The notes below the pieces were generated by a model, which did not search any database, was not told the origin of the DNA, and saw only the letters and a program-made list of their open reading frames with translations. A stretch of DNA of 64,000 nucleotides from Terramyces sp. JEL0728. Its lineage: Eukaryota; Chytridiomycota; Chytridiomycetes; Rhizophydiales; Terramycetaceae. The DNA lies in assembly GCA_027603945.1 (NCBI GenBank), contig JADIIU010000017.1, positions 1-64,000 on the forward strand. Reading direction: 5' to 3'. Positions 1-63,343 of this stretch are shown here, piece by piece. The translations under genes were made by a program, and so were the position numbers. The number at the start of each line of letters is the position of its first letter. The first letter of the stretch is position 1.

Positions 1-483
1 TTAATATCGGATTGATTTTGCAAGAGTTGATTGTTCATTTATGGTTTTGTCACGAGATATCCAAGATCATCTCGTACACAAAATTAGAGATGGAAGAATA
101 TCTTGAATATCTTTTAGAATGGGTTACAGAAAGAGATGAAAGCTTTGAAACAGAAATTCCCAGACACCAGTTCCAGTTTCAACTAAAACGGTTTATAAAA
201 TAAAGGAATGGAATTACCAACAGAGCAGGGATTAGCGTCAGACCGGATCATTTTGCCAATGCATTCATCAATACCTGCAAACAATATCTGGTGCCGCAAC
301 ATTTACTCGAGTTTATTTTGATCCAGAATCACGCAGGAGGATCGAAAAAAGTAGCTGTGGAAAAGACTGCAATGCTCAGTTTTACTAGCTGTATCTGGAA
401 AGAAACTAGACCCTTTGGTTATTTTAAAAAGAGTGCCAGATGGTTGCAGTACTAAAGCATTTAACACCTACGATAATAGTTAA
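1..483 (+). CDS. 3' end of an unrecognised gene (partial)
   Basis: The window opens inside this gene. The best supported part is 224-390, which encodes a helical stretch containing HFANAFINTCKQYLVPQHLL. A 19-nt GT-AG intron at 391-409 joins it to a last exon ending ...FNTYDNS at the TAA 481-483. The 5' boundary is unresolved: the frame open before 190 hits TAA at 201-203, so another splice is needed around 191-223 (a 33-nt GT-AG stretch fits, but is longer than the other introns here; a 15-nt one also keeps frame). I do not recognise the protein. Helical repeat-type C-termini of trafficking proteins look broadly similar, but no motif decides it. The intergenic part downstream to 654 shows nothing further. 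Confidence 0.45.
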
Positions 484-654
484 TTGATGCAGCAATGGAA
501 AAGCCTTCGCCAATCTAACCTATCATTAATCTCAATGTTTTCTAACCTTATTTCCAAGTCATATGACTATAGAATTTAGCATAAATTAACTGTAAAATTA
601 TTACGTAACGCATACACGAACGCTAGCTTAATCTAATAAATCGCGTCAAACTGC

Positions 655-1542
655 ATGCCTTTTACACCAGCGCAAAACAACTTAATTCAATTGGTTTCAA
701 AATGCAGTTGCAGTTTGGGTATTTTGGGATGTCTACTTACAATTCCTATAATTGTGTCTGGAAAGATTGACCTGAAAACTCCTTTGGGGAAATTGAATTG
801 TATTATATGGTTTGCAGATTTTCTCGACGCAACAATAAAGTTACTGGCATATACTCCAGCATTGCCAGTCCTGACGAATGAAGCCGCTTGCTACTTTCAA
901 GGTATAGAAGGAACATTTGCAAGCGGCATAAGTATTTGGGCCAATCTAGTTGTAGGAGCTTGGTGTTTCTATCTCTTTTACATTGGCGGAAGAAATCAAG
1001 TGTTCATCAATAACCAATTCTTATTGGTATTTGGCATATTTTTTTGTGCGGGTTCAATGGCTCTTATTCCAGTGATGACAGGTTCTCAACATATCTATGG
1101 AGGATTATTTTGGTGTTGGATTAACACTAATTATGCACAATACCAATTTTATACCTTCTTTTTATGGATGATGATTATCTGCGTGTTCAACATCGTCAGT
1201 TTGGCTTTGACGGTCTATCAAATTGGAAAAATTGGAATAGCGTCAAGGATTATAGCTAGGTTGTTCACTTATCTTGTGGTTTTTATTATAGTTTGGACCC
1301 CAGCTTTTTGGTATAGAATGGCCTTTTATATTACAGGAACTTCGCCATTTGCCATAGCTGTACTACAATATGCCACAATACCTGCAAGAGGGATGTTTCA
1401 TTATATAGCGTTGCAGATTAGTTTTGGAGTGAAATCTTCTATTGACGGAAATGATAGTATACAACCCGGAAATTCGCCAATGATTTCGTCTAATATTCAA
1501 TCTTGTAGTTCATTCAAGGAGGAAATAAAAGAAACTGTATAA
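655..1542 (+). CDS. cAMP-receptor-like seven-transmembrane GPCR
   Basis: Single-exon gene of 295 aa. Seven hydrophobic segments fill residues about 15 to 270. An extracellular loop carries HIYGGLFWCWI (about residues 143-153), which resembles the conserved Gly-x-x-x-C-W-I region of the Dictyostelium cAR / GCR1 class of receptors, and a Cys at about residue 79 could form the usual disulfide with the loop Cys. The cytosolic tail (from about 258) is Ser-rich (SIDGNDSIQPGNSP and SCSSF), a typical site for regulatory phosphorylation. The role inferred from the family is a plasma-membrane receptor coupled to heterotrimeric G protein for nutrient or chemical sensing; the ligand cannot be told. The start is the first ATG of the open frame. 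No intron signals interrupt it. Confidence 0.7.
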   Translation: MPFTPAQNNLIQLVSKCSCSLGILGCLLTIPIIVSGKIDLKTPLGKLNCIIWFADFLDATIKLLAYTPALPVLTNEAACYFQGIEGTFASGISIWANLVVGAWCFYLFYIGGRNQVFINNQFLLVFGIFFCAGSMALIPVMTGSQHIYGGLFWCWINTNYAQYQFYTFFLWMMIICVFNIVSLALTVYQIGKIGIASRIIARLFTYLVVFIIVWTPAFWYRMAFYITGTSPFAIAVLQYATIPARGMFHYIALQISFGVKSSIDGNDSIQPGNSPMISSNIQSCSSFKEEIKETV

Positions 1543-3431: not shown

Positions 3432-5665
3432 TTAACTGCGTTTAGACACCATTTGCCCTATTAGCTCACAACAATACCCAAGCCGCTCCAGTACATCTCT
3501 ATTACCGCAGTTCACCCAATCCTCTATACATTTAGTTTCCATATCGCGTGTTTTGCTGATAAAAGTAATGGCTTTACCACCATCGCAAACGAGAATTTTA
3601 GTATGGTCAAACAAGTTCAACTAGGTTAGATATTCGTACTTGAATGGTGTGGTTGGATAGACGAAACAAGACTCCATTCTTGGTTCGCAGGTACTTTGTT
3701 AAAAATGTCAACGAATTCTCGGTTGTTTCTGAAAAGAAGGCTTTGGTGAGGTTTTCTTGCATATACCCTTTGAAATGATTCAAAAGCGTAACTTTTTTTG
3801 CCAATTCTTTTGGCGGATTCGACAAGTAACACGTTCGTTTGTGCATCGTTGTTTTCTCCCCTTCTTTTTCATGGTACAAGTATTCAAAGCGACTGTGTTA
3901 AACAATATTACTTGTTGTCCGTCGACAGTATTATTGATGTTCCATCGTTAAAATAAACCCCTACGGATCCATCTCGCAGCTGATAAGACAAGCCGTATTT
4001 CGTGCTATAATCTATCCACTTTGTTATAAATACAGTTGGATGCGTGTATTCTATGTTAATTTCGCGCACCTCTGGCAGTCACTTCTGCAGTGGATTTAGA
4101 GTCAAGGCCAGTTTTTAAAGTATTGTACATACTCTCCAATGTACTTGAGGTTTTGCGTCCTGCTATTAGCAACAGTTACTTGGCGACATTCCTACTTTGT
4201 TTGGCGTACCAAACGGAGAATTTGACTCTAAACTCTCCACGCTTGGCTTTCTAGCTAATTCTTGACTAGGTTTTCTGGACAACTCTGACATTGGACTTTT
4301 CAACTCCTGGCTTGGCTTCCTAGATACACCAACAGCTCTATTTATTTGCTGATTTATCTTTGCAGACTGTTTTAGTGGTGAAGTATTGACTGACAGTCCC
4401 AACTTTTTTGAATTTGTCCTGGCCAATTCATTCAACTTGATTTCCTTGGTCTCCTTCAAATCAAACAGCTGGTCCAAGTCAACTTTTTCATTCTCTATAT
4501 TTTCTTTTTCTACATTTGCAACTATTTTCAATGATTCCACAGAAGGTTTCAATTCCAGCTTCCTGTTTGAATCCAGTCTAGGTGACTTCCATTGCTCTCT
4601 ATTCATGTTACTGATCGATATCATTCTAGATGGCTTTCTTGGCTCGACTATCTTTGCCTTGTGTTCAAAATCAGCGTAAAGCTCATCTGGGAAACTAGGC
4701 ACACTTGTTAGAGCTGACACTGGAATACTCTTTGGTGTATGCTCTTTAAAAAATTGGTGATTCATCACTTCATCGATGCTAGGTCTACATTCAGGCTTTG
4801 TGTGTAATAATCCAGTAATAATAAACCTTGCATTTTCAGTGATCTGGATTTCAGGTGGAAATTCATAACTATTATCCCTTATTTTTCTAAATCAACACAA
4901 ATTACTTGTAAATAGCTTTGACTTCCTTTGTTTGAAAAGGCGGCTGGCCAATAATTAAAGTGTACATGACAATACCAGCCGACCAAGTATCAACCTCAAA
5001 AGAATGGCCGTTCTTGGTATCAAACAAGATTTCTGGCGCAATGTAGTTGGGAGTCCCACAAACCGTTTTCCTACGATCTCCATCATTCTCAATAACAGCT
5101 GCTAAACCAAAATCGCCAATTTGAAGATTCATGTTTTCATCCAGAAACAAGTTTCCCAATTTGATATCTCTATGAATATATCCATTTCTATGCATATACC
5201 TGTGTTAAATAAGCGTACCTGATTCCGTCCAGTAACTGCCACATGTAGAACCGCACTTCGATAGTCACCAGTCGCTTTCGTTTCTTTAGCAAATCGACAA
5301 ACGTCTTGTTGGTGCACAACTCTAGTATAATATAAACATTCTCTTCGTCTTCAAAGCAATCAACAAAGCGACAGATGTTTTGATGTATTAAATGCTTGTG
5401 AATTTTAATTTCCGACAATAATTTAGATCGTTGTTTTTGCGTCTTTAAAGATGGTTTATAAACTACTTTACAAGCAAATGTATTTATATCGTTCTGCACT
5501 TTGTAGCATTTTGCAAATCCTCCCTGGGTTAGTAAAAGTTACTTGTCCAAGAAGTTCAAGGCGTGTAAAGTGTTTCTGATCTTGCTTGTCTTTGATTATT
5601 GGTGGTGGAGTGGGAGGCCTCTTTGTTGTTTTCTTTGGTGGTTCTGGTTTCTTTTCCGATTCCAT
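3432..5665 (-). CDS. PLK1: Polo-like kinase (kinase plus two polo boxes)
   Basis: Serine/threonine kinase of the Polo family, controlling mitotic entry, spindle poles and cytokinesis. The spliced product is 699 aa. Kinase domain: Gly-loop [11 protein letters not shown] (split by intron 5524-5542), Lys in FACKVV, catalytic [15 protein letters not shown] and activation segment [12 protein letters not shown] Ser/Pro/Lys-rich linker follows, then polo box 1 ([29 protein letters not shown]) and polo box 2 ([29 protein letters not shown]). Seven introns, all 19 nt except one of 20: 5524-5542, 5200-5218, 4887-4905, 4160-4179, 4051-4069, 3893-3911, 3621-3639. Every junction restores the family alignment and the total closes in frame. 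The ATG at 5665 precedes a Pro/Lys-rich N-terminal arm. Confidence 0.93.
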
Positions 5666-16688: not shown

Positions 16689-17353
16689 TTATTCTTCTCC
16701 AATAGACTGGTGGTACCACTCCAACAACGTATCTTCTTCAGTCAGCCTTCTCCTGTATTCCTTCCCATTCTTGTTAAACACTCCTTGCCGCTCAAAGGCA
16801 ACCTGCAGAATAGTCCTTGTTCGGTTTGGCTTAAAAGACCGCAACGTGTACACACGGAAGGAAGTAGTAGTTAGTTCAGTGACATGGTTGCTTAAATTAC
16901 AATCTGATTACCTTTCAATGTCGACCACATGGCATTTGAATCTATAAAAGCCCTTTTCTCTAATACCAAGACAGTTGAATACGAAAAACAGTTTGGCCTT
17001 TCCATCGTTCGGATCGTTCAGAATAGTTGCCGACACAGTTCGCTCGCCAATCAGATTATGCAAATACGTGTTTTCATTTCCAACTATATCTGGATCTTCT
17101 ACAATAGCACCAGCTGGCTTATGATCGACAGTGAGTAGTGATATATTACAAATAAACTGCTTACTTTTCAACTGGCGTTAATTTTAGGGTACTTGTTGCT
17201 CTGTTTGGTCTTGCAGGAACCGAATTTCCAGGATAAGCATGGGATCGCTGGATAAAAATAATCTTACATGCAACTGTCGATAAAATCCAGCTCTTTGGTT
17301 TCACAGCATCTGCACATCTTTGGTTCTTGACGAATAAATATTTTGTAGTCCAT
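16689..17353 (-). CDS. Velvet-domain transcription regulator, copy 2
   Basis: 200 aa with three introns of 20, 21 and 21 nt at the same positions as in copies 1 and 3 (after the ...IDSC Cys, before the KQFICNI block and after the VVDIE block). The start MDYKIFIRQEPKMCRCCETK is the velvet RQxP motif; the core keeps NDPNDGKAKLFFVFNCLGI, REKGFYRFKCHVVDIE and TTSFRVYTLRSFKPNRTRTI, and it ends EDTLLEWYHQSIGEE at TAA 16689-16691. It is clearly more diverged than copies 1 and 3 are from each other over the C-terminal half. Likely a nuclear dimerising DNA-binding factor; which velvet subfamily (VosA/VelB/VelC) it matches is not decidable by eye. Confidence 0.87.
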
Positions 17354-20690: not shown

Positions 20691-20824
20691 TTGAGATTCT
20701 AAAAAAACAAAACTCAAGAGGTGAAAAAGATTTATTCTGCTTGAAAATCTGGCTGTCAATTCAACTATCAATGAAATCAAACTGCACTGATTTTCAGTTA
20801 TTTTTTCTTTTTTTTTCAGCAGAA

Positions 20825-21431
20825 ATGAAGCAATTCACATATGTAATTGAACACATGGAGCCAGAAATAACAGGATGGCCAGAACTGGAATACAAGAATA
20901 TGCTCAAACATGTCAAACTACATTTATCCCATCTCGACCCTAATTTAATGAAAAACATTCCAGAAAGTTTACAAGGTGCTCAACTTTCCGCTGATTCTGT
21001 TTCTGATTGGCCAGCAGAATCGCAGAAGAGAGTACTGCTATTGGACCCCGCATCGCCTCATGAATTATCGCCAGAAGATGCTGAAAACTACGATTATTTG
21101 CTGTTTGGCGGTATTTTAGGTGACGATCCTCCACAAGATAGAACAAAGTACTATTTACTGATATAGGATATTGAGAAATATGGGATTTGCAACCAGACAC
21201 TTGGGACCGAAGCAAATGACTACAGATACCGCTGTGCTGGTATCACAAAGAGTGTTGGAGCATGGAATCAAGCTGGGCGATTTAGAGTTTGTAGATTTTC
21301 CTGAAATCCCGTTAGGAAAGAAGCAGACGGTCGAATTGCCATTCAGATACTTGGTTGAAGACGGCAAACCAAAGTTGCCGGATGGGCTACTGGATTTACT
21401 AAGAAAACAAAATGACGAACCATTGTTCTAA
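20825..21431 (+). CDS. SFM1: Protein arginine methyltransferase SFM1 (SPOUT family)
   Basis: 195 aa after removing one 19-nt intron (21148-21166). Matches yeast Sfm1, a SPOUT-fold methyltransferase that methylates ribosomal protein Rps3. Visible family blocks: YVIEHMEPEITGWPELEY at the N-terminus, VLLLDPASPHELSPEDAENY, the knot motif LLFGGILGDDPPQDRT, RHLGPKQMTTDTAVLVSQRV and ELPFRYLVEDGKPKLPDGLL near the end. The unspliced frame stops inside the intron (TAG), and splicing restores RTK-ILRNMGFATRHLG. Substrate Rps3 and cofactor SAM are inferred from the family. It is divergently arranged with the PEHE gene. Confidence 0.93.
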
Positions 21432-38719: not shown

Positions 38720-41561
38720 TTACATTTCATTAGAGAAAATTACAATGTCTCGTTGATCAACTCCTACTGAAAGTAACAAATCTACAACAGTTCCTTGCAT
38801 TGGATTAGGGCCAACAACGATTACTTTTTGTCTTTGAATTCTGCTGAAATCCCATAAATCAGATACCAGTGCCCCAATGATATTACGATCTATCCTTCCA
38901 TTTCCACAGACACCATATTTTTCCATTGCTGGTTGGTAAGATTTTCTTGTGAATGTATTGAGGATAGACGATTCAATTGGGTATGATAATAGCGCATGGG
39001 ATGTAATTTCTTGACCGAAAATATCTTCCTTTTTCTTGCATGTATTCAATAAAGCTACTTTGGTGGCCTGTAGAGGGAATGTGACTGCAAGCGGGAATAC
39101 ACCGGATTGGTTTGTTGTCATGTTCAGTCCGTAGCACCAGCCATCATAGTAATGGCTAAACACCATAAGATAATCTCCACTAGTTACAAATACTTCATCT
39201 CGATTTTCAGGAATATAATTTTGCCAGGTTTGCAAAGGAACGTTTGTAGGCAAAAGCAGGGAGTGGATGAGAGCCAAGGAAACCGAATATCCTGTTCCGC
39301 CCGTAATGCAAATGATTGTATCGTAGTTTGCCTGGACCATGCTATGGAAGGAAAGAGAGTTTCTACTATCCATACTGCTGAATCTGTTATTCATAGTGTT
39401 GGCTGAACCACTACGGTTGCTACTGGACAAAGACATCATAGGATCTACTATAGGATCACCAAATGGACCGCTGATTTGGAATTGTCTATCGCCGGGCTCT
39501 TGATCACACAAGAATCTTGATACATTGCCATCTGCGTACGATTTCACAAAGATTTCAAAAGTATTTAGCTCAGAGTTGATCGGAGTATAGTAATTTTGAT
39601 GGTACTTTCCATTTTTAAAGTATCTAATCAATACACTTTGGCCAGGCAATATTCTTGGTTGATTGACTCTAATATCGAATGGATACAAAATAGAGAACTT
39701 GATTCGGTAGATTGGCGTGTCAGACTTGGATTCGAGTGTTTTGGCCACAATTGCGTATCTCCGAGGTTCATAAATATCGAATTGCACTTCATCCTTGTTT
39801 GTTGAAATTTCCCCAACCACTAATTGCGATAGCTTTTGGATTGCTAGTCTTGAGTGAACATGAGTTCTTCTTGCCCGTAGAACATGTTTCCATTCAGTTT
39901 CCGTGATCAGACTTGGATCCAAATCCATATCGTGTTTGAATGTTGGTCTTTGGCTATTGCTTGCCATGCTACCTCGTTTTGATACTTCTGCTGTTACTGG
40001 CGTGTAAGCCTTCTTTTTGTTTGCTTTCTGGTTTTGCTTAGGAATGAACGATTCAATATCAAATCCACTCTCATTGAAATAATCCTGCGTGATATCCGTT
40101 CCAGCAACAGAGTTTAATATTAGCGCACCGCCAGGATGGCTGTTTATCCAGCTGTCGATTCGAATAACATATTTGCCTTCTGCGACTACTAACCAATCTC
40201 CATTTTGTAGAGCTTCTCCAATTTCCTTCCAAGTATAACTCTTGAGATTCTGCTCTTTAGGAATTAATGGTTCTGCGTTTCCATTCATTTTTTTCAGACG
40301 GTTTCCAATCTTTTCATATCTGAATCCTGGCAATTGAAGTCTGTATTGCTTGTAAATTTCCGCAACCACGTACACAATAACCCAGAATGAAATGTCAATG
40401 AAATATAATATCCATGCCAGTAGTCCTCTGAACTTTGCTTCCTCCCAAGGGAATAGTACATTTAACCCCAAACCAGCTTGGATGAAAGCAGCAAGCAACA
40501 ATGATCTTCCGAGCCAATGGTGAACAGTGGATACCCACCAGAATCTACTTCTGTCAATATTGATTGATTCCAATTTCAAAGACATTCTATTGGCAATCCC
40601 AAAAAATCCTTGCACATATGTAAAGGCGACAACAAATATTCCCAGCAGAGAATGCGGTCTAAGAATAGTGCCATAGTTAGTATTGGAAATGTTTTCAGGT
40701 AAACTGAGGAATACGTACAAGGCCGACGCAAGTACACCAATGAACGAACCAAGCCCTTGGATATAAATGTGAATTTTCATCCATCTACATTAGAGCAGTA
40801 TTACTGGTTGAGAAATTTGAAATATCTGGTAACGAATATCGAAATAGGAAACAAGAATAGCCAGATGGTTGCCATGGAAATTGCGTGAACTCTTTTTTCA
40901 AAAAGACCATCCGAAATAGACAAGTTAATATCAGAAGAGAGATAATTGATAAATGTTCTTCCGCGATATTTCCCGTGCCAGTACATCCATCCATCTAAGT
41001 TAAAATTTGATTACTCTTTCCAGCTGGATCGGGTTGCAAGTTGAATGCCCACAATTGCGGAATTCTAGTGACATCCAAATTGCGGTGCAAGCCATCATTA
41101 GGGCTAGTGAGTCTGGTGAATTCTACAATAGCAACGTTCCTTCCCAAATCGCACACTTGAGTCATTGACACTAAATTGAAAACCTTGTTGTTTGGAGATG
41201 CAATTGGCGGTGCGTAACCGCCAGGATTGACGGCTTCGATAACTGTTGGTTTGGTTTCCCCTTCTTTGCAGTAAGCTATTAAAAATTCCCCTGTCAGCAT
41301 ACTTTGTCCGAATGCCATGCCAAACCAAATTCCTTCGACAGTAGTGTTTGGTGTATCCAGCGAGTACTGGGTAGCATTGAAAACCATTGCACCATGAATA
41401 GTTTCATTCGGCGTTCCGAGATTGAGTACGCTCCAGTAATACTGATAGCCCAAGCTGTCATCGAATGTGTCTGCCAAAAATTCAAATTTGTTGAGCAAAG
41501 GGTCTGCATTTGTATTCTTGAGACAGCATATAAATCCAGTTAGTAGCAAAATTAATATCAT
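38720..41561 (-). CDS. DOMON-cytochrome b561-cytochrome b5-reductase fusion with inserted SH3
   Basis: 933 aa, introns 40995-41014 and 40785-40804 (20 nt each). In order: signal peptide (MILILLLTGFICCLKNTNAD); DOMON domain (YYWSVLNLGTPNETIHGAMV, GIWFGMAFGQ); b561 membrane core with heme histidines in RVHAISMATIWLFLF, PHSLLGIFV and STVHHWLGRSL; cytochrome b5 domain with heme motif INSHPGGALIL; then a ferredoxin-reductase-like FAD/NAD part (FKNGKYHQNYYTPI, FGDPI, CITGGTGYSVSLALIHSLL). Between that glycine loop and the C-terminal VVGPNPMQGTVVDLL sits an SH3 domain (VFVTSGDYLMVFSHYYDGWC, YGLNMTTNQSGVFPL). A transmembrane electron-transfer role is inferred, from cytosolic NAD(P)H to an outside acceptor such as ferric iron. 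Confidence 0.85.
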
Positions 41562-42104: not shown

Positions 42105-45100
42105 ATGAATCCAGAGCGACAACAGCTTATAGATAGAGTAAAACAGCGATTAAGAGAACAAAAAGAAAAAGGGATTACTGTAACAGTAGAAAAAGTAACT
42201 GGGATGTTAAAATAGCCGCCAGATGAACTTGCAGAAATGAGATACCGTAGAACAAGTCTAATTGAAAATCTGGGCAAAATCCCCGGGATTCAACAGCCAG
42301 TAAATCCACCATCTTCGCAGGAGATAGATGATATTATAACACCGTTACCAAAGGAAAAGAAGGTTCTCAATCCAGTGTTGCAAAAGAATCCTTCGTTTAC
42401 TGGTCTGAAAAGGATTGTAATGAATTTTAATGAAGGACTCTAATGGAAAATCATCAAATGTCTCTACAACAAATTTACTCAGAATTGTAACCATTACTAA
42501 CCAAGAACTCGAAATTGTCATCGTCAAATATCACCAAAGTAACCTGTGTTAACAATAGTCGATTTATAAATTATTAGAACGGGGAGTTACGCTGTGTGAT
42601 AGCGCATACGATGGTGTTCAAGTTACACCACTGGTTCCAATAGCTGAACCAGACATAGTAAAGAGAAGGAAAGCATTGCAGAAACGGAAAAAGAAGGATA
42701 TCAATCAAGAGTTCACGATCGAAGGTTCATCTTATTAATGCAGAAATCCAAGAGATTACTGAAATAGAAGAACTGTATTCTCCAGCCGGCATGACTGCGC
42801 TGCAAAAGTGGAGTCCCAACACAGTCGTCTATTCAGAGCAGGTATATTCTCTTTAATAAGATTACTCCTTACACGTTTTATTATCCAACCCCGCTGGGAC
42901 TAAACGGAGAGATAAAAATCAAAGTAGATTTATACTAACTAGAAATCAAAAAGAAATGAAGGGTTTTATGAAGGTGATATACCAGTTATAGCACCGTGGA
43001 ATTACGATAGATTACTGCGAAGATTGTCCATTACAAAGCACAACAAGTGATTCATCGCTAATATGCAGTTCGTGGTTTACAAGCCCTGTGAATTTAAATA
43101 TTCTCCCTGACCCGCTAAATTATATCCACTATAAAGCATTACCGGACTATTCTCGATGCTCAGACATTGGACCTTTCGGGTACTGCGAAACTGTTCTTAC
43201 AAAAGCATCAATATCAAAGGTACACGAGCTGCTTCCGGAAGTTCTATCCCTAGTAGTCAATTTATCCAGTGTTGAATTCGAAATTCATCCCTTGATGCTA
43301 CAAGAAACAAAACTATGTATTAAATTGGAGAAATCCGTTCACGCTTATCAGCAGCGGAAAAGAAGCAGCAATATTGATTATTTAACTGCTAAAATTGAAG
43401 CAATAAGAGCGACTTTAGCAGAGGAGCATACTCAATTGGAAACACTCCGCTACACTCCTACAATTTCTGACGAAAATATCATCAGTCCGAAAAAACTGAC
43501 ACTCCGGCTGGGTAAACTTGAATCAGAAAGACTAAGACTCGAAAAAAACCAAGAGGATAAAATTGTTCAATTACTAAAAGATATCTTTGCTCTCCGCAAA
43601 CTGAGGGTATCCTGTCGATAATACTAGGACTCTGAATGTAAAATTAATCGTGATTTGGAATACAAGATTGTCAAATGCTGGGAAGATATCAAACTCGTCC
43701 GGAACAATCAGGGATTTTCGTCTAATGATTTGAAATTATCAATCAAACTAAAAAAGAGGAAAAAAGTAAGCTAAGAGTTGACACAGAATCTGATTCAAAT
43801 AGATGTGGAGCTGGAAAACGAACTGAATGAATACATGGATTTATGTGAAATTGAATATCAGCAAGAACTAAGAGATTACCATAAGCGAGAAGCAGGAGAA
43901 AGTATTTCACAGTCAGCTTCACTAAAGCAACTAGAGAATGAAGAAGATCGAAACTATTCCGATTCAGATATGCTGATTAGAAAAGAAAAACCACTTGGGA
44001 ACTCTAAAAACAGCTTGAGTGTTGAACCAAAGAAAAATGTTGTTTCAAAGACCCTAAAATCTTCAATTATGAAGAGATTGAGGAAATCGCATCCAGCCAA
44101 AGATAGCCATATTCTTGATTTCACTCTTGACCATTCGTCCCCAGTTACCATCTACATGGAATGTCCTGAAGTACTCAAATCTAACAATAGATTGAACAAC
44201 TGCGACGAAAACGCCAGGAAAACACATTCTTCCATCTTGTAATTAAATTCAACAACAAAACAATCACTCAAACAGTTCCCAAGCATTTAACAAATGATTT
44301 TTTGATCAAATTTAACGGGATTAGTGATTTGGCGGATGTTAAAAATGCCACAGATGCAGGCGATACAAATACTGCATTCAGTATACAAATCCGCGAAGTG
44401 CCTAGATCAATACAAGTACAGATCTTTGAAACTGTAAATCTGTTTTAAATTAGTGTTCGTTGGGAGTAAAAGCAATTAGCAAAGTAAATGTGCCTTTGCC
44501 GGCCAAATCAGATTTTTCAACCGCTCTAGATCGCGAATTGAATCAAATTGAATTTTCAGGAGAATCGTTTGAAGAGTTAAAGAGTTATGCATTTGCGCGA
44601 CATGGTAATGTTACAGGACTGCTGGCGGCAAATGTATCATGGGGAGCTGCGGACGCGGAGAGTGCAGTTGCATCGAAAGATATAATGTACCTTAATGTTT
44701 ATACTAGTCCGAAAAAGACCTTACCTCTTGGAGACCCGTTAAGTTTCCATGGCCCGGTGGGTTTATTGAACCTTCCTAAGATGATTGAATGGTTAGGAAA
44801 GACAATTGTTGATCCAAACGACCCTAGAAACCAGAATTTGCTGCAGATTAAACAACTGTTTGATACAGTGTATGGCAATTCTAAAAAAGTCATCAAGAAC
44901 AATTCACGATGTTTTTTCAGGGAAAATATTCCAAACTGGCTGCATGATATTACGTTGGGAGTTGGGGTTTCTATTTGACTAATACAGATACAAGTAACAG
45001 AAAACGTTGCCAAAAGATTCCAAATTTTAAAAGATCGATTTGACAGAAAAATTGTCCTGGATAAGCCAGTCCCGCTGCATATCACTGATGGATTGATAGA

Positions 45101-47174
45101 GTCAATAGCAGTGCCTAGTTCACGGAAAGATTTAGCTGTAACCAGTATTTTACAATTAGGAAGAGGAAACAATGAAGAAATGGAGTTCCAGAAGCAACTT
45201 GGATAAATTCCATGACACAGCTCCAGAGTTGGGATTTCTCAAGAGAGTCAGAGAGCTGCAGTTGATAAGAAAACTGGCTTTGGAAAAACCAAAGACAGTC
45301 GACGATTACGTGCGGGAAGAGAGAATTGCACCAGCTCCTGAAGCAGAATTCGATATTTTGACATTGTTCCGACCGCTTCGTCCGTTAAATCCATACAGAA
45401 ACAAAAAATCAAATATTGTTACAAGCAAAATTGAAAATTGTACCATATCTGTGCAAATATTGCAAGGACTGAATTTTCCTGTTCGTCAACATGACATCCA
45501 AGAAGCAAATCAGATCAAACTCAAACCGTTTGCCGAGATTTCGTTCCAAAAGAATAAAATTAAATCCAACGTAAGCGATGGAGTGCAGCCATTGTGGAAC
45601 CAAACAATGTTACTGAAAGTGCAAGCGCCGACTGGAGACTTCAGCCCTGAAACACTGATGGAAACAGATTTAGCTACCGAAATATTGTACATTAATCTTT
45701 TTGATGAAATCACGGTGGATTTATTGGAAGATAAGCGGGAAAAGGATCGGACTACATATGTACGAAGAGATAGAGTGTGGATAGGAAGCATCAAGATCCC
45801 ATTTTGTTTTATATGGGAGCGAGCTAGAGTACGATCCAGCTAATTTAGATTGACGGATATTTCCCTATTTCTCATCCTTGTGTATTACTGGGGTATGAAT
45901 TCCCAGAAACAGAAGAATCGCTGCCAAAAGTAGAGCTGATTCAACGTAGTCAATTGCATATGTTTATTACGCTAGATCCACCGTTGAATCAGCCAAAGAA
46001 TCTCATTTTCAAGGTAGATTAACATTGATCCTTAGTTTCAGAGTGATGAGGATCCAAAGTTCCTAAAACACTGTACATTTTGGCAAGAAACCGCCAGATA
46101 CCCTGGGAGACATGCACTTGCGATCACTCATGATATGGAAGGCAAAACAACATTCGTTTGCAAATACATTCGTCCGCAAAACCCACCGCCATCACTTACT
46201 ACAATATCACAGATACTGAGATTCGTGTCGATGGTTCCTTTTTTGCCCAACAGATCCGTATTTGCAATGACATGCCATTTATGGGCAACCACAGACCAAA
46301 TTTTGACTATCGGAGCAGCAGACGCAATCGAGCATGCAATATTACTATGTAACTACTTGCAATATTTGGACTATAAAGCGTGGGTAGTGTTGGGAAATGG
46401 AATTTTGGAGGGTAAAACCGCTGCAGTACTAGTGCGGCAAGAAAATATTGATCTACCACTAAACGAACAAAAGGCAATATACCGCCTGTATCATTCAATG
46501 ACTGGAAAGGCCTTTTACATTGATGACAAGCTATTTCCAATGATGGAAATTGATTTGATATTCAATCACGAAAATGTAAAACGAGACTCATTTAGATTTG
46601 GCTAAATATCCAACCGGAGTATTCCCCTGACAAGATTAAATACAACTTGAGCGACACAAGTTGCTGGAAGCCGTTTTTTGGCCACGGAGTTCAAAAACCG
46701 TCGTATGGAAGTATTCAGGTACGTCGCTTGCTAACAAAGCCTGCGCTCTTGGCTTATGAGGAAGTTTCAAAGAAATGGTGTGCCAATTTGGAGTGGAAAC
46801 TGGAAAGAGCGATCGTTTCCAGATTTGAAGAGTGGCGAAAAGGCAATATAACCAGATGGAACAGGCTGTGCAGTCGATCGCTAAAAGCCCTAATCAGTAG
46901 ATTCGAAGAGAACATTATTGCAGAGATATCGCTATCTAAAACAATTTTAGACTCGAGCGAGTTAAATTCTATTGGCAAAGTGTATAAATTGAACGGACAC
47001 CCTATTAATTTGCCATATACAGATATTGCAACTGTGTGTGACGCAATTTTTAACACCGAAATGCATACCAACGTATCTGCAGGTGTAGAGTTCGCATTGG
47101 CGGTACACGTAGACGGCTATTCGTCTCATATCGCCAGCGTATGGATCTTCTTGACCTCACTTTTGAAGAAATAG
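42105..47174 (+). CDS. CC2D2A: CC2D2A, ciliary transition-zone protein
   Basis: 1574 aa from 18 exons; 17 introns of 19-22 nt. Component of the MKS module at the base of cilia and flagella. Coiled coil: LRLGKLESERLRLEKNQEDK. The C2 region includes FHLVIKFNNKTITQTVPKHL and DRVWIGSIKIPFCFIWERAR. The diagnostic C-terminal block is strong: ILRFVSMVPFLPNRSVFAMT, ATTDQILTIGAADAIEHAIL, LCNYLQYLDYKAWVVLGNGI, NIWLNIQPEYSPDKIKYNLS, NITRWNRLCSRSLKALISRF. DPNDPRNQNLL is another family hallmark. The length matches human CC2D2A (about 1620 aa). The introns were chosen by repeated restoration of frame and family sequence; a few in the poorly conserved N-terminal third (42180-43080) could be off by a codon or two. 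Confidence 0.92.
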
Positions 47175-47246
47175 TAAATAAAATATTCAAGTAAACAATG
47201 TCCTTACAATGGAAATGTTGTCAGTCACGTCACTTTCCCTCAGCAA

Positions 47247-48275: not shown

Positions 48276-48315
48276 ATCATGTGCATTTTAAACAAATAAA
48301 ATGGTTTATAAGAAT

Positions 48316-49251
48316 TCAAGAGTCAGCAGTCAACACTTTTTGGATTTTTTCTTGATCTGGTCTTTCAGCAATCTGTTTCCCCAACGTATCTGTCAAAATG
48401 GCTTTTTCCAATTTTACTTTGGCTTCGGCCAAGACTGGAGAGACAATGGAATCTGCATTAATAGAGTTTACCTTTCAAGATGTTTAGCTCTTCTAATCTT
48501 GTTACGGATGGTCGGTTGGCCATGTTCTTTTTCAACTCATCAGTTGCTATTGATTTTTCCAGCTCGTGTTTTGGCCCGAGCAATGCTGGAGATAGCTTGT
48601 CAAAGTCTTCTGGGAGGATATTCCTGTCAATCAACGTTTGTGGTGATGGTCTGCGCAGCTGGGTTTGATGAATCTTATCAGCCACAATTGATTTCTCCAG
48701 ATCAACAGATGGTCCCAAGAGTGCGGGAGCGACTTTATCGTAATTTTCTGGTAAGATGTTACGATCGATTAGTTCTGCCTTGGAAGGTCTTCTTGATCTG
48801 TTTAATTTATCGGCAACAATGGATTTTTCAAGATCTAGCGCAGCACTCAACAAGCTAGGCGATAATTTGTCGTAATTCTCTGGTAGGATGTTTTGAGCAA
48901 TCAGTTCTGCTTTCGATGGACGTCTGTTTCTGTTCAACTTGTCAGCTAGCAATGACTTTTCCAGTTCCTTGGCGGCAGCTTGCAATTTCGGTGCTACAGG
49001 AGAGTCAACAATAATATTAATATCCACCAGTTCGGCCTTCTCTGGTCTGGCTTCTAATGAATTTTTGACTGCTAAATTCTTTAGTGCGAGATCCAAATCT
49101 GCAGCTTTTCCTTGTAATGCCGGATCTACACCGTAATCTGCGTTAATAAGCTCGCTAACCTTTAAGAATATTGTGATCGATCAACTATGGTTAATATAAT
49201 GCTTACCTGTTGTGTTGTTGGACGGTTTTCGAGTTTTTGTTGCAATTCCAT
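48316..49251 (-). CDS. RPEL-repeat protein (actin-binding)
   Basis: 290 aa from four exons; introns 49185-49206 (22 nt), 49138-49159 (22) and 48453-48471 (19). It consists of six or so RPEL-type repeats: ENRPTTQQLIDHNILKDYGV, RPEKAELVDINIIV, NRRPSKAELIAQNILPENYD, SRRPSKAELIDRNILPENYD, LRRPSPQTLIDRNILPEDFD and NRPSVTRLEELNIL, linked by L(E/D)KSIVADKL helices. RPEL motifs bind G-actin; fungal repeat proteins of this kind are small actin-binding regulators. The second exon is only 25 nt (49160-49184) and encodes the middle of the first repeat. The start could lie further upstream (ATG near 49365) if a leader intron exists. Confidence 0.82.
49160..49184 (-). other. 25-nt microexon of the RPEL gene
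   Basis: Flanked by two 22-nt GT-AG introns. It supplies LIDHNILK of the first RPEL repeat in the correct phase. Without it the repeat is broken. Confidence 0.8.
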
Positions 49252-52903: not shown

Positions 52904-54690
<1,787 letters not shown>

Positions 54691-54981
54691 TGCGCAAACC
54701 AAATTCGGGATCGCAAATTGTGTATCTGGTATTGGATTACTCATTATGACTCATTCTTCATTTAACCTCTAAATGGAAAGAGTGAACGAACTGGTTATAT
54801 GAAAGGTTGCATAATTGAAGAACAGGAGGGTAGAGGATAAGAGATTAATATTATTCAAGGTAGTCTAAACTTTATGTGAAATGCATCCAAAAGTGTTTGG
54901 CTATAGTGCAATGTTATGATTCATCTCAAATCCTACAGTGACATCATATTATAAACTCTCATCTACCATCACAAAGATTTA

Positions 54982-56255
54982 TTAAAACCCCTGGAAACAA
55001 GCGTCATAGTTTGGCAATTCATGACTTTCAAGTTCGCTGCCATCTATATCTTGCCATACACTCTTGATTCCATGGACCTGTCCTTTCTCCATCTTTCCAG
55101 GCTTAACCTTGCCGGTAGGCATACCTCCCTTGTAAATTCTATTCGCTCCAACAGTATTTTGGGCACTAATTTCTATACGATCCCAGAATCCCACCATGAA
55201 ACTTATTCGCCGTTTGTTGGTATCGCATACTCCTTTACCAGGCACCACCCCGTGCAAGTATTTGGAGTCAAAGAGCAAGACTCTGTTTTCCTTTGGTTCT
55301 ACCAACCACCCCTCGTCTGCTAAATCATCTCCCAGTCGCTGATTTGTTAGGATGGTTGGTCCGCCAACGCCTTCAGTCAAATATAGCACAGAAGACAATA
55401 GTGGATGTCGAAGTTCGCCTTTACCTTCATTATCGCTGTCGTAGTGGAATTGATGGCCCATAAAATGAGGTCTACAGTGTGCCCTACATAAATAAACACG
55501 TACCACCACTCTCCATATCTAATTTGCTTGAATTTTTCTGGAAATGTCTTTTCCAAATGTTGATACTGCAACCTGATGTACTGTTCTACCAAATTCGTAG
55601 GCTCTTTTGATAAATCATATACAAAGGAAAAGTATCCAGTGTTTTTGAACTCATGGTATCCAAAATCTCTCCAGAATTCCGACTGCGATTGGAAAACGTT
55701 AAACATTTGATTGAACGATTGTTTGTCGAGGAAATCGTCAAAACAAGCTGCATTTGGACAATCTAATGGCACAGTCAATCCATAGTCAAGTACAAATGAA
55801 GATAGTCTGCGAGTAAAGTTCATTTCGTTCAAAATTTTAAATGCCAGCCTGTCCTTTCCGCTCTGACAATAAATCAAACACAATTTCTCTTTCGCTCTGA
55901 CCAAATACTCTTGTTCCACTTCCAGCAACTGTCTGGGCAGACTTTCCATACTGTCTCTCATTTTAATAGCTCGTTTCAACATTAAAATAATCAACGATAG
56001 TTTTTCAGGTGTGTCTGCAAGTGCATGCATTCTATCTACCAATTTAAACCGGACCATAATTGATTCCTTGTACTCGTCTAACGCTAATCGGTTATATTTT
56101 GTAGCTTTTTTGAATTGGTAGTCTGAGAAATACAAGTCTGAAATCAAATGGTACACTTTATATTTTTGCATTGGAGTTGCGGTTGGTAAGAGCTGCTCCA
56201 GCGCATTTATTGGGTCTGGTTGGAATTGGGCTTTCTTCAATTTGATGCTGAACAT
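54982..56255 (-). CDS. 2-oxoglutarate/Fe(II)-dependent oxygenase with helical N-terminus
   Basis: 417 aa, one 20-nt intron splitting WW-AHCRPHF. The N-terminal 200 residues are helical, TPR-like (MQKYKVYHLISDLYFSDYQF, KATKYNRLALDEYKESIM). The C-terminal 170 form a prolyl-hydroxylase-type double-stranded beta-helix: metal ligands in HQFHYDSDN (HxD) and in YLHGVVPG (distal His), with Arg in RRISFMVGFW for 2-oxoglutarate, and SVLYLTEGVGGPTILTNQ between. Substrate not known; related fungal and algal proteins are mostly uncharacterised. The first ATG is at 56255. The gene is only about 110 bp downstream of HEM13 on the same strand. Confidence 0.75.
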
Positions 56256-56369: not shown

Positions 56370-57515
56370 TTATTTTACCCACTCTCTTGGCTTGCGAAGC
56401 ACTTGCAACAACTCGTCTTCTTTGCTTCCAAGGACTGGAGAATGGTTGTACTGCCATCTAGCAAGCAATGGTAAGCTCATCAGCACGCTTTCAATCCTTA
56501 CACCTGCATTAACAAAACAAACCTGGAGTAACAAGCCCAAATTTGGTTCCTCTGTCATAAACCAAATTGAATTCCACATATCTGCCTCTACGCAGCTGTT
56601 GCCATTCCTTTTCCTGCTTTGTATACGGTAAATCTTTGCGTTTTTGAACAATTGGAAGATACTGGTGAGCGAGAGCATGAGCGCAGTCATAAACAAAGTG
56701 ATAGGTCTTTTGCGGATCAGCATCCAAGTCGTCAAAGAAAATGCCGCCAACACCTCTAGACTCTCCTCTATGCGTGAGATAAAAGTATTCATCACACCAT
56801 TTCTTGAATTTAGGATAGTAGGTTTCGTCATGCTTATCACAGGCTTCTTTGATTACTTTATGGAAATGCATTGCGTCTTCAGGGTACAAGTATGAAGGAG
56901 TCAGATCAGTGCCTGCATTAATGAATAGTACCTCCGCCAAACCACGAAGCAACTCGTTCATCAGACTCGTCTTCTCTCAATTCAAAGTATCTGTAATTGG
57001 CATGGAAGGTAGGTGCGTGCGGATTAACTGGATGCATAACCATAGATACACCAGCAACAAACATATTGTACTTTTTGTTGTCGTCCACATTCATTGGTTT
57101 TCTTGCTCTCATGTGCTGCAACATTGGTTTAGGAGCAGGAGAGGAAATTACAGAGAAATTGACTCCAGCCTGCATTAATACAAAGTACCTTTTCAAATAC
57201 TTTGCCGTCTTGGAGTACTGCAGAAATACCATAACCACCTTCCTTCCTAGTCCAGCTATCCAATTCAAATTTTTTGCCATCTGGACCTTCAAATGCTTCC
57301 AATCCGCTAACCATCTCTTTCTGAATATCCTTAACCAATTGCTCCATTCTAATTGACAACGGAAATGATGAATTTACATCTGATTTTTCATTTTGAAAGT
57401 ATGGGATTACTAGTCTCTGTTCCGCTTTGACTTTTTGAATTGGGATCGCTGCAATTGTTATGCCTGCAACTGACCCTATGAAAAGGCGGGACGATAGTCT
57501 GTTCAAGATTCCCAT
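56370..57515 (-). CDS. HEM13: Coproporphyrinogen III oxidase
   Basis: 362 aa, three 19-nt introns. Oxygen-dependent enzyme converting coproporphyrinogen III to protoporphyrinogen IX in heme synthesis. Blocks: [127 protein letters not shown] and [20 protein letters not shown]. The first 25 residues ([18 protein letters not shown]) look like a mitochondrial or membrane-leader extension, unlike the cytosolic yeast form. The three introns are unusually alike (all end TTAATGCAG). ATG at 57515 chosen; the frame is open slightly further upstream without ATG. Confidence 0.95.
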
Positions 57516-57809: not shown

Positions 57810-58970
57810 ATGCCTCCAAAAAGTAAGAAAGCAGCAGTAGAAAGGAAGCAAAAAATTGTCGAAGATAAAACTTTTGGTTTGAAAAACAAAAACAAATCCA
57901 CAAAAGTAAAGAAATACGTAGAAGAAGTAACAAAGCAAGTGCACGTTGCAGGTAATTTATCTTGATGCTAGGGGACCGTAAACAGAGAGAAGCGCAGGAA
58001 AAAGCCAGGCAGGACCAATTGTTGAGGAAAAAGATGGAAGAAGACAAAAAGAAAGAAATGGCGGAATTATTCAATTCAGTTATTATTCAACAAAAAGTCC
58101 CATTCGGAGTCGATCCAAAGACAGTCTTGTGTGCTTATTTCAAAGCCGGCAAGTGTCAAAAAGGAGGTATTTATCATTTAAAAAGACCGTTGTAAATTCT
58201 CCCATGATTTGAATGTTGAACGTAAATCACAAAAAGCAAATATTTATCAAGATGCAAGAGAAGACGGTGACGAAAAGGAGGAAAAGGAAAAAGATACAAT
58301 GGAAAATTGGGATCAAAATAAGCTGGAAGATGCGATTAAACAGCGTGAATCCGGCAGAGAAAATTTCAACAAAGCAACTGAAATTGTCTGCAAATATTTC
58401 ATTGAAGCTATTGAAACGCAAAAATGTATTTTGTATTAACAAAGATGGCTGGTTTTGGGACTGTCCTAATGGGGTTACATGCAAGTACAGACACGCACTT
58501 CCTCCTGGATTTGTATTGAAAAAGAAGGAAACCGAGCAAGAGCGAAAAGAACGAGAAGAATACGAAAGGAAGAATGAAATTACAATTGAAGAATTCTTGG
58601 AAAAAGAAGTATTTGGTATTAATAGTAGCGACTTTCTCTTGGACCAAACCTTACTCCGGTGACAGCAGAATCGTTTGCTAAATGGAAAGCAGAGCGCACT
58701 AAACGCCAAGAATCAGTTCTAGAAGAACAAAACAGAAGCAAAAAAGAAGCCATGGCAAGAATGAAAGCCGGTCAAAAAACCGGAATGAAATTCTCTGGCA
58801 AGGATATGTTTGATTTCAATCCTGACTGGGCTGAAGAAGGAGATGATGATGCTATGGATGAATATATTATACAGGAAGAAGATGATGAGATGGAAATTAG
58901 TAGAGGTGTGAGTGCTGCTAGTTTGGAGGATATCCAGGAAATGCAAGTCGATGATGTTGAACAAGAATAA
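57810..58970 (+). CDS. TMA46: CCCH zinc-finger protein, TMA46/ZC3H15 (DFRP) family
   Basis: 360 aa, introns of 20, 19, 19 and 20 nt. The family stabilises DRG-type GTPases (Rbg1 in yeast) on ribosomes. Visible: N-terminal [30 protein letters not shown]; first CCCH finger [20 protein letters not shown] plus [25 protein letters not shown]; second finger ...[51 protein letters not shown]; acidic C-terminus. Splicing joins the zinc ligands, for example KGDRCKFSH across an intron, which confirms the model. ATG at 57810. Confidence 0.92.
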
Positions 58971-59866: not shown

Positions 59867-60121
59867 CAAAGAATTTCGTGAAGCAAAGTCGGTCAAGTTG
59901 GAGATTCTGGGAGGCTTGAAATCATATAATCGATGCTGTTAGCTGCTAAACTAATCTTGGAATTTGTTTCAGATATTGTGCAGATTCCCATGCAGTTAAT
60001 CTCCAATCTCTTATCTAGATTGAGCTTACCTTGTCTGGCCATCTTGTCATTGTAAGACCTCCTTTGTGCAAATTGGCATTCCTTGTGTTGTAGCCACCAA
60101 TTAATCTTGACAATCACAAAA

Positions 60122-63100
60122 ATGGCTTACAACGACTATTCATATGGAGGGTATGCCCCAAAAATGGGGAGTCAAAAGATGGAAGACGAATTAGCGCAAG
60201 CAATCAAAAAAGCTCTTTCTCCTGAAGAAACCGCACCAAAGCAAAAGCACGTTCGATCATGTATCTTGTACACCTGGGATATGAAAGGATCTGGATCCAT
60301 CTGGAATGCATTAAAAGTATTCCCAATGCTGAGCGAAGACGTAATTGGGTTTAAAGCAATGATTTTGATTCATAAAGTTGCTCGACAAGGGCATCAAAAT
60401 GTACCTATTGCTAACATAGGCATTGAAGGATCTGGTTGCGGAAAATAATTGGCTGGACGGGATCGGAAGAGCGAGTAGTTTCCAAGGATCTTACGCCCAA
60501 CTCATTCAAGTTTATATCTCATTCTTGAAAAGCAAATTACAATACCACAAATTCCATCCTTACTTTTCTGGAACATTTGATTATGAAGAATACGTATCCC
60601 TAAAAGGAATTGAAGACCCGAATGAAGGGTAATTGAAACTGATGCAGGTATGAAACTATATTTGAATTGCTGGAGTTGTTGGAAAAGATTCAAAAGTTTC
60701 AGAAACTAATCTTTTCCAACTTGAGATCTTACGGTGGCCATAACGAAGCTAGGATTGGTGCGCTAGTTCCACTAGTTGAAGAAAGTTATGGCATCTACCA
60801 GTTTATTGTTTCAATGATGACAGCCATGCATACAAGTACTTGTAATTGACGATAGTTATTGGCTCTGTTGAGGTATTGGGGCCGTTGCGCGATTCTTTCA
60901 AGGCTCACCACTATGAGCTGGTTCAATTTTACGATGATTGCAATCAAATTCGGTACTTGACTTCCTTGATTTCCATTCCAAAGTTGAGCAGCGAGCCGCC
61001 AAACTTTTTGGCTCAAGGACCGCCAAGGCAGCAACCAAGGAATGCTCAAAGGAACAACGATGCAGACAATGAAAGGGAAAGAGAGAGAGAAAGAGAAGTA
61101 ACTGCTAAATAACCGTAGCGCCAAAGAAAGCTCGAAGAAGAGCGTGAAATGAAAGAACGCCAGCGATTACTCGAGCAGCAACAAGAGCAATATGAGCGCG
61201 AATTGCAACAGCAAAGGGACGCCGAGCTGAAAAGGATGCAAGAATTGCAATTGAGAGAACAAGAACAATTGCGGATGCAAATGCAACAACAAGAACAATA
61301 CAATATTGGGCAGCAATTGGAGTTCTACCGCCAGCAATCACTGAGAGATAGGGAAACTCTTGGTCAGTATGAGCTAGTAATTTAGTTTTAAATCTAGAAA
61401 GTAAATCAGCTCCAACAAGAATTGAATCGTGCATTGCAAAACCAGTCTGGGGATGCTCAAAAAACCGAAACTATCACAAGGCTTACGAACGAAGTTGATC
61501 AATGGAAGACAAAGTATGAAGCATTAGCCAAACTATACGCTCAGCTGAGAAAGGAACATTTGGATTTATTGACCAAATTCAAAGCTCTCAAAGATTCAGG
61601 GGCCAAAGTTTCAGAAGATGCTCGCAAGAACTTGGAAAAGGCACAAGCTGAATTGAAAGCAAAAGCGAATGAATTAACCGAAGTCATTGTCGAAAGAAAC
61701 CGTTTAAAAGGCGATACCGACAGAATTAGATTGCAATATGAAGAAGAATTTGCTAGATTAAGAAAAGAATTGGAGCAAAGCAAAGCTGCATTGACTGAAA
61801 TGTCACTTACTAGAGGGTCGGAAGTCCAGTCGCTGGTTGCAAGATTCACACAAGAACAGCAAAATTTGGAAAACATTCTCAAAGGAAAGCAAATGGAAAT
61901 TGCTCAGTTGACAAACCAACTGCAAGATGTGTTATCAGCAATGGAAAAATCCAAACTGGTATTTGTCCAATAACATAGAACTACGAAGAAGAAACTTCTG
62001 TTTTACAAGCAGGGCTGGATCAAGCTCTGGAAATCCTTCGTCAACATCAAATGGAGAGTGAGTCGGGAATGGGGGCTAGGGACGAAAGAATCCAAATACT
62101 GGAAGGAAAACATCAACAATTGCTCGATCAAATGATGGGTAATTAAATGCTTATGTTAGACAATGTGCTCCAAACCTGTGTCACTACTGTGTCTGAATCG
62201 CTGTTCCAGTTGGATGCTGTCGAAGAAGGAGCAAAAGTTTCTCCTGAATTTGTACTTTCTTTGATTGAAAGAGCTCAACAAAGATGCACTGAATTCTCTA
62301 CCAGTTTTGTAAAGTTTGTGAATGGCGGTGATCCAAAAGATGCAGTGACTACATCTTCCGCATTTGCTCAAGCTATAGCTGAACTGCTGCGCAGCGGTAA
62401 AGCTGCAATTGGCTTGGCTCAAGAAGAATCGGACGGAGATGAAATCCACAAGTCCTTGGCTCTGTCTGGGCAAGCAACTGTCCAATTCTTTGAAAAAGTA
62501 AAATCTGCAGTACTGTCCCAAATACCAGCACAAAAGAAACCAGAATACATTGTCAATATTTCAAGAGAGACCCAACAGCAAGTGAGCCGAGCAACGCCAT
62601 TATTAGAAAAAATTGTCGGGTCAAAGCAAAACAAAATCGAAGGAGATTTGGGAGATGCTGTCGAAGGTGCGATGGGTGCTGCAGCGAGAGCGATAGAAGA
62701 AGCTAGCAAACGTTTGCAAGCACTGCTTCAAAGCCAAGGACCAAACCTCAATGTCAACTCTGCAATTCTCCAAGCTGCTATTGCAATAACCACAGCTATT
62801 TCCAATTTAATCAAATGCGCAACTGCATCGCAACAAGAAATCGTCGCCCAGAACAAAGGAAATGCATCATCAACTGCATTCTACAAAAAGAACAACAAAT
62901 GGACGGAGGGTCTTATTTCTGCTGCCCAATCTGTAGCCACTTCTACCGTGTACTTGGTGGAGGTAGCAGACGGGCTTGTCCAAGGAGTTAAATCGTGGGA
63001 ACAACTTGTTGTCGCTGCTCAAGATGTCAATGTATCTACCACTCAACTAGTTGCTGCTTCAAGGGTAAAAGCAACACTGTATAGCAAAACACAAGATCGC

Positions 63101-63343
63101 TTGGAGGCAGCAGCAGTTCAAGTGCGCGAAGCAACCAAACTGTTGGTAAAAGCTGCAAAAGATGCGTCCAAGCTCTCTGCCGAAAGAGATGCCAGAGAAC
63201 AGGTTGGGAAAATGTCAAAGCACGAGGCAAAAGTCAAGGAAATGGAACAGCAAGTCAAGATTCTCGAGCTGGAAAAGGAGTTGCAAACTGCCAGATACAC
63301 TCTTGGCGAAATGCGCAAAGCTGGGTATCACGAAGAAAGCTAG
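60122..63343 (+). CDS. SLA2: SLA2/HIP1-type endocytic actin adaptor
   Basis: 1026 aa over eight exons; introns 60401-60419, 60629-60647, 60836-60855, 61098-61118, 61377-61397, 61959-61978 and 62139-62159 (19-21 nt). Links clathrin coats to actin. N-terminal ANTH domain: KKALSPEETAPKQKHVRSCI, YTWDMKGSGSIWNALK, ALKDLVAENNWLDGIGR, FDYEEYVSLKGIEDPNEGYE; it binds phosphoinositides. Central Gln/Glu/Arg coiled coil (EREMKERQRLLEQQQEQYER). C-terminal I/LWEQ (THATCH) actin-binding domain: WTEGLISAAQSVATSTVYLV, GLVQGVKSWEQLVVAAQDVN, LVAASRVKA, final helix VKEMEQQVKILELEKELQTA. All yeast-type domains are present. ATG at 60122. Confidence 0.94.

Follow-up and report, generated by a model that had tools for sequence, protein, structure and literature searches.

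Introns of 19–22 nucleotides, probably of the U2 type, in the chytrid fungus Terramyces sp. JEL0728

Genes of the chytrid Terramyces sp. JEL0728 are interrupted by GT–AG introns almost all of which measure 19–22 nucleotides (nt), with a sharp lower limit at 19 nt. The introns were studied in the first 64,000 nt of contig C17 (JADIIU010000017.1; this whole stretch is hereafter called the window), part of a draft assembly of 15.0 Mb in 231 contigs, and in samples from the rest of the genome. Judged from sequence, they are very probably spliceosomal introns of the U2 type, shrunk genome-wide to roughly the smallest size that this spliceosome can physically handle. The phenomenon is real, genome-wide and surprising: a known kind of intron is found in a kingdom for which the open-access literature searched held no earlier report of this size, and with a parts list unlike those of Stentor and the mikrocytids. 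The first-pass annotation of the window had proposed ultrashort GT–AG introns with a floor at 19 nt in a fungal host; model-free counts, sham controls and junction homology agree on the introns, and the host is indeed a fungus, of the order Rhizophydiales. Beyond that proposal, most of the floor is accounted for by the arm between 5′ splice site and branch site, and some longer inserts are built of abutting units of ~20 nt.

Results

Intron length spectrum

Donor–acceptor pairs were counted at each length, with or without a TAAY branch motif, in 264 kb of sequence (the window plus twenty 10-kb stretches) and in the window alone, and were compared with Markov nulls (Markov-4 for GTA..TAAY..AG). 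In the 264 kb, GTA..TAAY..AG occurred at chance level at 17 nt (31 observed, 29 expected) and 18 nt (25/29), at about five times chance at 19 nt (131/26) and 20 nt (134/26), at about twice chance at 21 nt (68/28) and 22 nt (52/29), and near chance from 23–24 nt onwards (33/25 and 25/29, respectively). Bare GTA..AG pairs, lacking the branch motif, also peaked at 19 nt (585/423) and 20 nt (552/430), and a GC-donor control, GC..TAAC..AG, gave no peak at 19–22 nt. As the step from 18 to 19 nt is seen in counts made without gene models, it is a property of the sequence itself and not of the models. GT–AG ends are thus in excess over chance at a defined spacing, which is one of the marks of U2-type introns.

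The same lengths were recovered by a gene finder, a Viterbi procedure with a codon model. Its first version, given bare GT..AG ends and a flat length prior of 12–60 nt, called 205 introns, of which 127 fell at 19–22 nt; nine sham dinucleotide pairs in the same finder placed there only 8–19 of 143–174 calls (5–12%). The finder's early calls of 29–60 nt were not kept as a class, many of them containing a 19–22-nt intron by eye and some being composites. With learned motifs and a flat prior, 72 of the 76 introns called in the window were of 19–24 nt. When units were allowed to reach no more than 26 nt, an upper length imposed by construction, 81 introns were called in 23 genes of the window: one of 18 nt (low confidence), 30 of 19, 22 of 20, 18 of 21, eight of 22, and one each of 23 and 24 nt. 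Homology of DNA topoisomerase I (TOP1) adds two stop-free 21-nt introns, 23885–23905 and 24275–24295, bringing the total to 83. The first-pass tally of 83 introns, 82 of them at 19–24 nt (31, 23, 18, 8, 1 and 1 for 19 to 24 nt), is nearly reproduced. The span annotated for them in the first pass is 391..63343 (no strand assigned); the first intron is called at 3893 and none before. The claim that none is shorter than 19 nt stands as regards the sharpness of the floor, but is qualified by the low-confidence 18-mer and a few ambiguous calls of 17 or 18 nt. In the run that yielded the 216 introns used for branch geometry (see below), four of the six calls shorter than 19 nt were tandem acceptors (...AG/CAG) also readable as 20- or 21-mers; a 17–18-nt class was not accepted, because these acceptors offer such alternatives and the reading frame cannot decide between them.

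Homology across the junctions

Three genes of the window carry junctions that could be compared with known proteins:

3607..5665, minus strand: Polo-like kinase with six introns of 19–20 nt (3893–3911, 4051–4069, 4160–4179, 4887–4905, 5200–5218, 5524–5542), from the gene finder and Pfam
23351..25725, plus strand: TOP1, from the gene finder and alignment to chytrid TOP1s, with introns including 23475–23494 (20 nt), 23522–23540 (19), 24275–24295 (21, no stop), 24556–24574 (19), 24914–24932 (19), 25173–25191 (19) and 25534–25554 (21)
23399–23418 and 23434–23456, plus strand: N-terminal introns of TOP1, less certain
60122..63343, plus strand: SLA2 with seven introns (60401–60419, 60629–60647, 60836–60855, 61098–61118, 61377–61397, 61959–61978, 62139–62159), from the gene finder and chytrid SLA2 alignment

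In the rebuilt Polo-like kinase, the Pfam Pkinase match (34–287) crosses three of the six junctions and POLO_box is also matched, and rebuilt SLA2 and TOP1 align to other chytrids. Prp8, encoded elsewhere in the genome, was rebuilt with five introns of 20, 19, 22, 21 and 21 nt; when two segments that together include the five junctions were aligned to solved Prp8, no junction showed a gap.

The deposited Terramyces SLA2 model agrees with the rebuilt one at six of seven junctions, the exception being the first, so that the public annotation already contains such introns. Deposited Terramyces TOP1 is without exons that are present in the rebuilt protein. Terramyces proteins are the best matches of both rebuilt TOP1 and rebuilt SLA2, and outside the stretches where the models differ (the N-terminus, dropped exons and end of TOP1, and the first SLA2 junction) no residue differs in the alignments shown. 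Gene models of Boothiomyces are truncated or have an apparent retained intron; in the SLA2 model of Boothiomyces JEL0838 (P0122), seven inserted residues look like the translation of a 21-nt intron left in place. Dropped exons, early stops or seeming retained introns were noticed in public models of this family (P0001 and P0003 for TOP1, P0122 for SLA2, P0250 for a transporter).

Two contigs sharing a 98.9% identical region provide an internal comparison. The intron-free proteins, of 358 and 387 amino acids, are identical between the copies, hence the exon differences are synonymous, and both 1-nt indels within gene spans fall in predicted introns (21 versus 20 nt in each case), the other indels lying between the genes or at the end of the locus. 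Duplicate contigs, which may represent two haplotypes, were noted for the loci L023 and L024 (contigs C199 and C111), and Cwc25 matches of equal score were found on contig C30 as well as on C33; the genome is possibly heterozygous.

Splice signals and branch geometry

The 5′ splice site is GTAWTT-like and the branch site is RYTRAY, complementary to GUAGUA of the encoded U2 small nuclear RNA (snRNA), as in U2-type introns. In a set of 216 strong-motif introns, each 19–24 nt long, the branch A was assigned by motif with no constraint on distance. It lies at position 14 in 113 of them, 15 in 66, 16 in 16 and 17 in seven, and is followed by 5 nt in 108, 6 in 74, 7 in 12 and 4 in eight; the proximity of branch site and AG reported in the first pass is thus borne out, with mostly 5–6 nt to the intron end. 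A later run of 317 introns, in which a branch A had to be followed by 4 nt or more and overlapping gene calls on opposite strands were kept, gave the same peaks (position 14 in 158 and 15 in 117; 5 nt after the A in 156 and 6 in 116). Since the branch A is rarely placed before position 14 and hardly ever has fewer than 4 nt behind it, the floor of 19 nt is made up of two arms, each at its minimum: 14 nt from the 5′ splice site to the branch and 5 nt beyond it.

Splicing machinery

Nine proteins (Prp8, Slu7, Prp18, the large and small subunits of U2AF, SF1, Cwc25, Yju2 and Isy1) and three snRNAs were sought. All nine proteins are encoded, as in a major spliceosome, and U2 snRNA was found at 140 bits with a canonical branch-recognition site, GUGUAGUA. 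Slu7, Prp18 and SF1 score over the curated cut-offs; the large U2AF subunit (E=3.5e-74) reached 251.7 bits, below its cut-off of 310.3, in an exon-by-exon search judged by a whole-protein cut-off. Cwc25, Isy1, Yju2 and U2AF1 (the small U2AF subunit) were found with one joined query. The GGG plug of Cwc25 is kept, since the protein begins MGGGDLNLKKSW (MGGGDLNLKK), and the N-terminus of Yju2 (61%) is retained. No remodelling was seen in the two segments of Prp8 tested, and only the N-terminal part of Isy1 looks diverged (30%, E=0.06). Loss of Slu7, Prp18 or U2AF had been predicted as the cause of the tiny introns and was rejected, since all are encoded. A candidate U6 from a 21-mer match was also discarded, having no Rfam match and reading as coding by eye.

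Inserts built of abutting units

Some longer inserts consist of intron-sized units placed head to tail, each having a GT, a branch-like motif and an AG of its own:

23842..23905, plus strand: TOP1 composite of 64 nt, three abutting GT..AG units at 23842–23863 (22 nt), 23864–23884 (21) and 23885–23905 (21), by homology
L006 7576–7615, minus strand: composite of 20+20 nt in a gene that we take to be INTS4; both units must go to keep the frame
L025 7848–7890, minus strand: composite of 22+21 nt in an SLC38-like transporter, from frame, Pfam and chytrid alignment
L044 68–132, minus strand: near-composite in Isy1 (20 nt, 1-nt exon, 20 nt, 3-nt exon, 21 nt), spanned by the Pfam Isy1 match

Taking out all 64 nt of the TOP1 insert gives MLYDGKAVDL, matching the residues of relatives. 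Removal of both transporter units gives TYQGLLRHCYG, gap-free against seven fungal relatives chosen from 120 listed; no Terramyces name was among these 120 best matches, and a PDB search with the segment yielded no credible relative. In Isy1, PDB matches begin beyond the composite junction, which the Pfam match covers. The presumed INTS4 composite is called from the reading frame, because its segment is without a Pfam match.

Among 402 introns in 317 kb, exon gaps of 0 nt occur three times and gaps of 1, 3 and 8 nt once each, while gaps of 9–60 nt total 17 over 52 values, about 0.3 per value. In a simple simulation, 0.04–0.08% of random sequences of 40–43 nt could be divided into two valid units. 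The composites, which are few, came from a search directed at abutting units; a Markov null for adjacency gave 106 hits versus 520 and is no fair control. By eye, no unit is a copy of another. Since the units abut, each with a full set of signals, the inserts are not stwintrons.

These arrangements suggest that an insert exceeding one unit would be tolerated provided that its units can be spliced out in turn, stepwise via zero-length exons, although removal as a single intron of 40–64 nt may also occur. A wider proposal is made tentatively, as one we consider possible but somewhat short of an even chance: the spliceosome would be inefficient on introns much longer than ~24 nt, longer inserts would persist only as head-to-tail introns of ~20 nt spliced singly via exons of zero length or 1–3 nt, and intron length would thereby be quantised. 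The abutting array is possibly a new form of intron.

Other genes of the window

Further intron-bearing genes of the window were called by the gene finder:

14996–15560, minus strand: gene of a presumed velvet-like group, 22-nt intron 15491–15512
16689..17240, minus strand: presumably velvet-like gene, two 21-nt introns, 16891–16911 and 17172–17192
18468–19131, minus strand: gene of the same presumed group, 24-nt intron 18942–18965
20771..21431, plus strand: gene with one 19-nt intron, 21148–21166
27278..29256, minus strand: presumed NOP2-like methyltransferase, two 19-nt introns, 27424–27442 and 28531–28549
38720..41561, minus strand: presumed cytochrome b5/ferric-reductase-like protein, two 20-nt introns, 40785–40804 and 40995–41014
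42105..47174, plus strand: putative CC2D2A-like ciliary gene (first-pass name), 18 introns, 42195–42215, 42417–42435, 42487–42505, 42539–42558, 42725–42743, 42842–42860, 42924–42942, 43047–43068, 43607–43627, 43766–43786, 44171–44190, 44434–44453, 44967–44987, 45138–45159, 45829–45848, 46014–46035, 46576–46595 and 46719–46739
48316..49251, minus strand: gene with introns 48453–48471 (19 nt), 49138–49159 (22) and 49185–49206 (22)
52904..54744, minus strand: presumed phosphoglucomutase, seven introns, 53510–53530, 53583–53602, 53697–53716, 53966–53985, 54241–54260, 54424–54442 and 54659–54678
54982..56255, minus strand: gene with one 20-nt intron, 55484–55503
56370..57515, minus strand: presumed coproporphyrinogen oxidase, three 19-nt introns, 56504–56522, 56913–56931 and 57170–57188
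57810..58970, plus strand: presumed CCCH zinc-finger protein, introns 57952–57971, 58167–58185, 58426–58444 and 58609–58628

Once its introns are removed, the CC2D2A-like gene reads as a single frame across 5 kb; a search for another copy of 42000–48300 of the window elsewhere in the genome found none. The three neighbouring genes at 14996–19131 (minus strand) are alike. A small secreted-looking protein with a serine/asparagine-rich tail is encoded at 26344–27201 (plus strand), presumably resembling expansin/barwin, and three similar membrane-protein genes, with short introns called in each, lie in tandem at 49612–52815 (plus strand).

Discussion

In the proposed mechanism, U2 would pair with the branch site, the first AG past the steric minimum would serve as acceptor, and a tight ceiling of about 24 nt would make size itself a recognition cue, that is, intron definition; none of the splicing proteins sought would need to be lost. 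Several observations weigh against U2-type introns compressed genome-wide to a minimum of 19 nt. As regards length, the few 17/18-nt calls stay ambiguous and rare 17–18-mers may exist; GTA..TAAY..AG at 13 nt stands at twice chance (31/15), where 11 of the 31 pairs share an acceptor with a 19–22-nt hit, being nested in it, and the other 20 are without explanation. At the long end, 26 of 338 calls in the 264 kb exceed 24 nt (learned motifs, flat prior, penalty −7), composite inserts of 40–64 nt exist, and the GTA..TAAY..AG counts show mild highs of 47 at both 43 and 47 nt (28 and 26 expected); the composites and these two highs leave an absolute upper limit unproven. The branch A lies before position 14 in 12 of 216 and nine of 317 introns. 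At the 5′ splice site, 45% of introns have T at +5 and only 18% have G, which is unexplained without U1 and U6, and pairing with these snRNAs may be altered or unusual. Neither was found in the genome: the U1 search also matched in no control genome, and the Rfam hits for U6, at 27 bits versus a cut-off of 44, look spurious.

The failure to find U1 and U6, the predominant T at +5 and the diverged N-terminal part of Isy1 would fit a spliceosome that has been reduced or remodelled to suit very small introns; such a change has been proposed for Stentor and reported for mikrocytids. This explanation is the best of the alternatives and nevertheless unlikely, as, among the nine proteins and three snRNAs sought, Slu7 and Prp18 are present, the Cwc25 plug whose loss is described for Stentor is intact (PMC9505925), and the tested Prp8 segments, the Yju2 N-terminus, SF1 and U2AF are retained. 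Adapted surfaces of the spliceosome, expected in the first-pass annotation, thus find no support so far, the U2 site being canonical and Isy1 the only one of the nine proteins sought that looks diverged in part.

It is improbable that only part of the introns are short and that longer ordinary ones were missed by the method. The gene finder is limited to 60 nt and initially misread the TOP1 insert of 64 nt, and to the long calls and the highs noted above a spacing count of 44 at 94 nt can be added. Against this, GTA..TAAY..AG counts over 25–100 nt average 29.9 (standard deviation 5.5) and no length in that range comes near the fivefold excess of 19–20 nt, while all five introns of Prp8 and all seven of SLA2 are short.

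Removal by other means, either ribosomal bypassing or excision from DNA of elements like internal eliminated sequences, could be entertained because removal at the RNA level is itself deduced from sequence. We regard it as very unlikely in view of the GT–AG ends, the branch site matching U2, the U2 snRNA and the full set of nine proteins. Systematic small insertions in a draft assembly could hardly be the source, given that the inserts show a constant arrangement of GT, a branch site complementary to U2, and AG, that the same introns are common to two contigs and that the deposited model treats six of the seven SLA2 inserts as introns.

Compressed U2-type introns would make this fungus a good system for asking what sets minimum intron size, with some of the shortest introns known in any nucleus. 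A fungus with 19–22-nt introns and all nine proteins sought indicates that loss of the second-step factors Slu7 and Prp18 is not needed, and it allows the two arms that set the minimum to be separated. In yeast, long distances from branch to AG depend on Slu7 and Prp18, and limits measured there become testable at the opposite extreme in a fungal system. Annotation is affected too: deposited gene models from this family may be faulty, as the examples above show.

Recursive splicing at zero-length exons is known in Drosophila. The composites resemble it, and the stwintrons of fungi, in that a longer insert would be removed in consecutive reactions; they differ in that the chytrid units abut and are each a complete minimal intron of ~20 nt, neither nested nor very long.

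The other tiny-intron cases considered (ciliates, mikrocytids and an algal nucleomorph) are reported, in the sources consulted, to have reduced or altered splicing parts. Introns of Stentor coeruleus are of 15–16 nt, with the branch A at position 10 of 15 or 11 of 16, and Slu7 and Prp18 are entered as N/A in the table of that study, which also describes loss of the Cwc25 GGG plug (PMC9505925). The chytrid introns share with them a narrow size range, a GTA start and a branch A ~5 nt before the intron end, but have a 5′ arm of 14 instead of 10 nt and a strong branch-site consensus, and the chytrid keeps Slu7, Prp18 and the plug, so that the Stentor-type loss is absent (PMC9505925). Since the 3′ arms are equal, the 4-nt difference sits in the 5′ arm. 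Mikrocytos mackini has introns of 16–17 nt, and for mikrocytids, which are obligate parasites, 17–19 spliceosomal proteins and 224 introns in 179 genes are given (PMC10245619). Their introns are likewise tiny, very narrow in range and conserved in sequence, whereas the chytrid window alone holds ~81 introns in 23 genes and every protein sought was found (PMC10245619). Very similar in length are the numerous introns of the chlorarachniophyte nucleomorph, at 18–21 nt, where U1 and U5 snRNAs are shrunken; that nucleus is an endosymbiont relic, whereas the chytrid introns reside in a fungal nuclear genome (PMC6461891). The introns of Paramecium (25–45 bp) are also short and narrow in range, but longer than those of Terramyces and of another lineage (PMC5014332).

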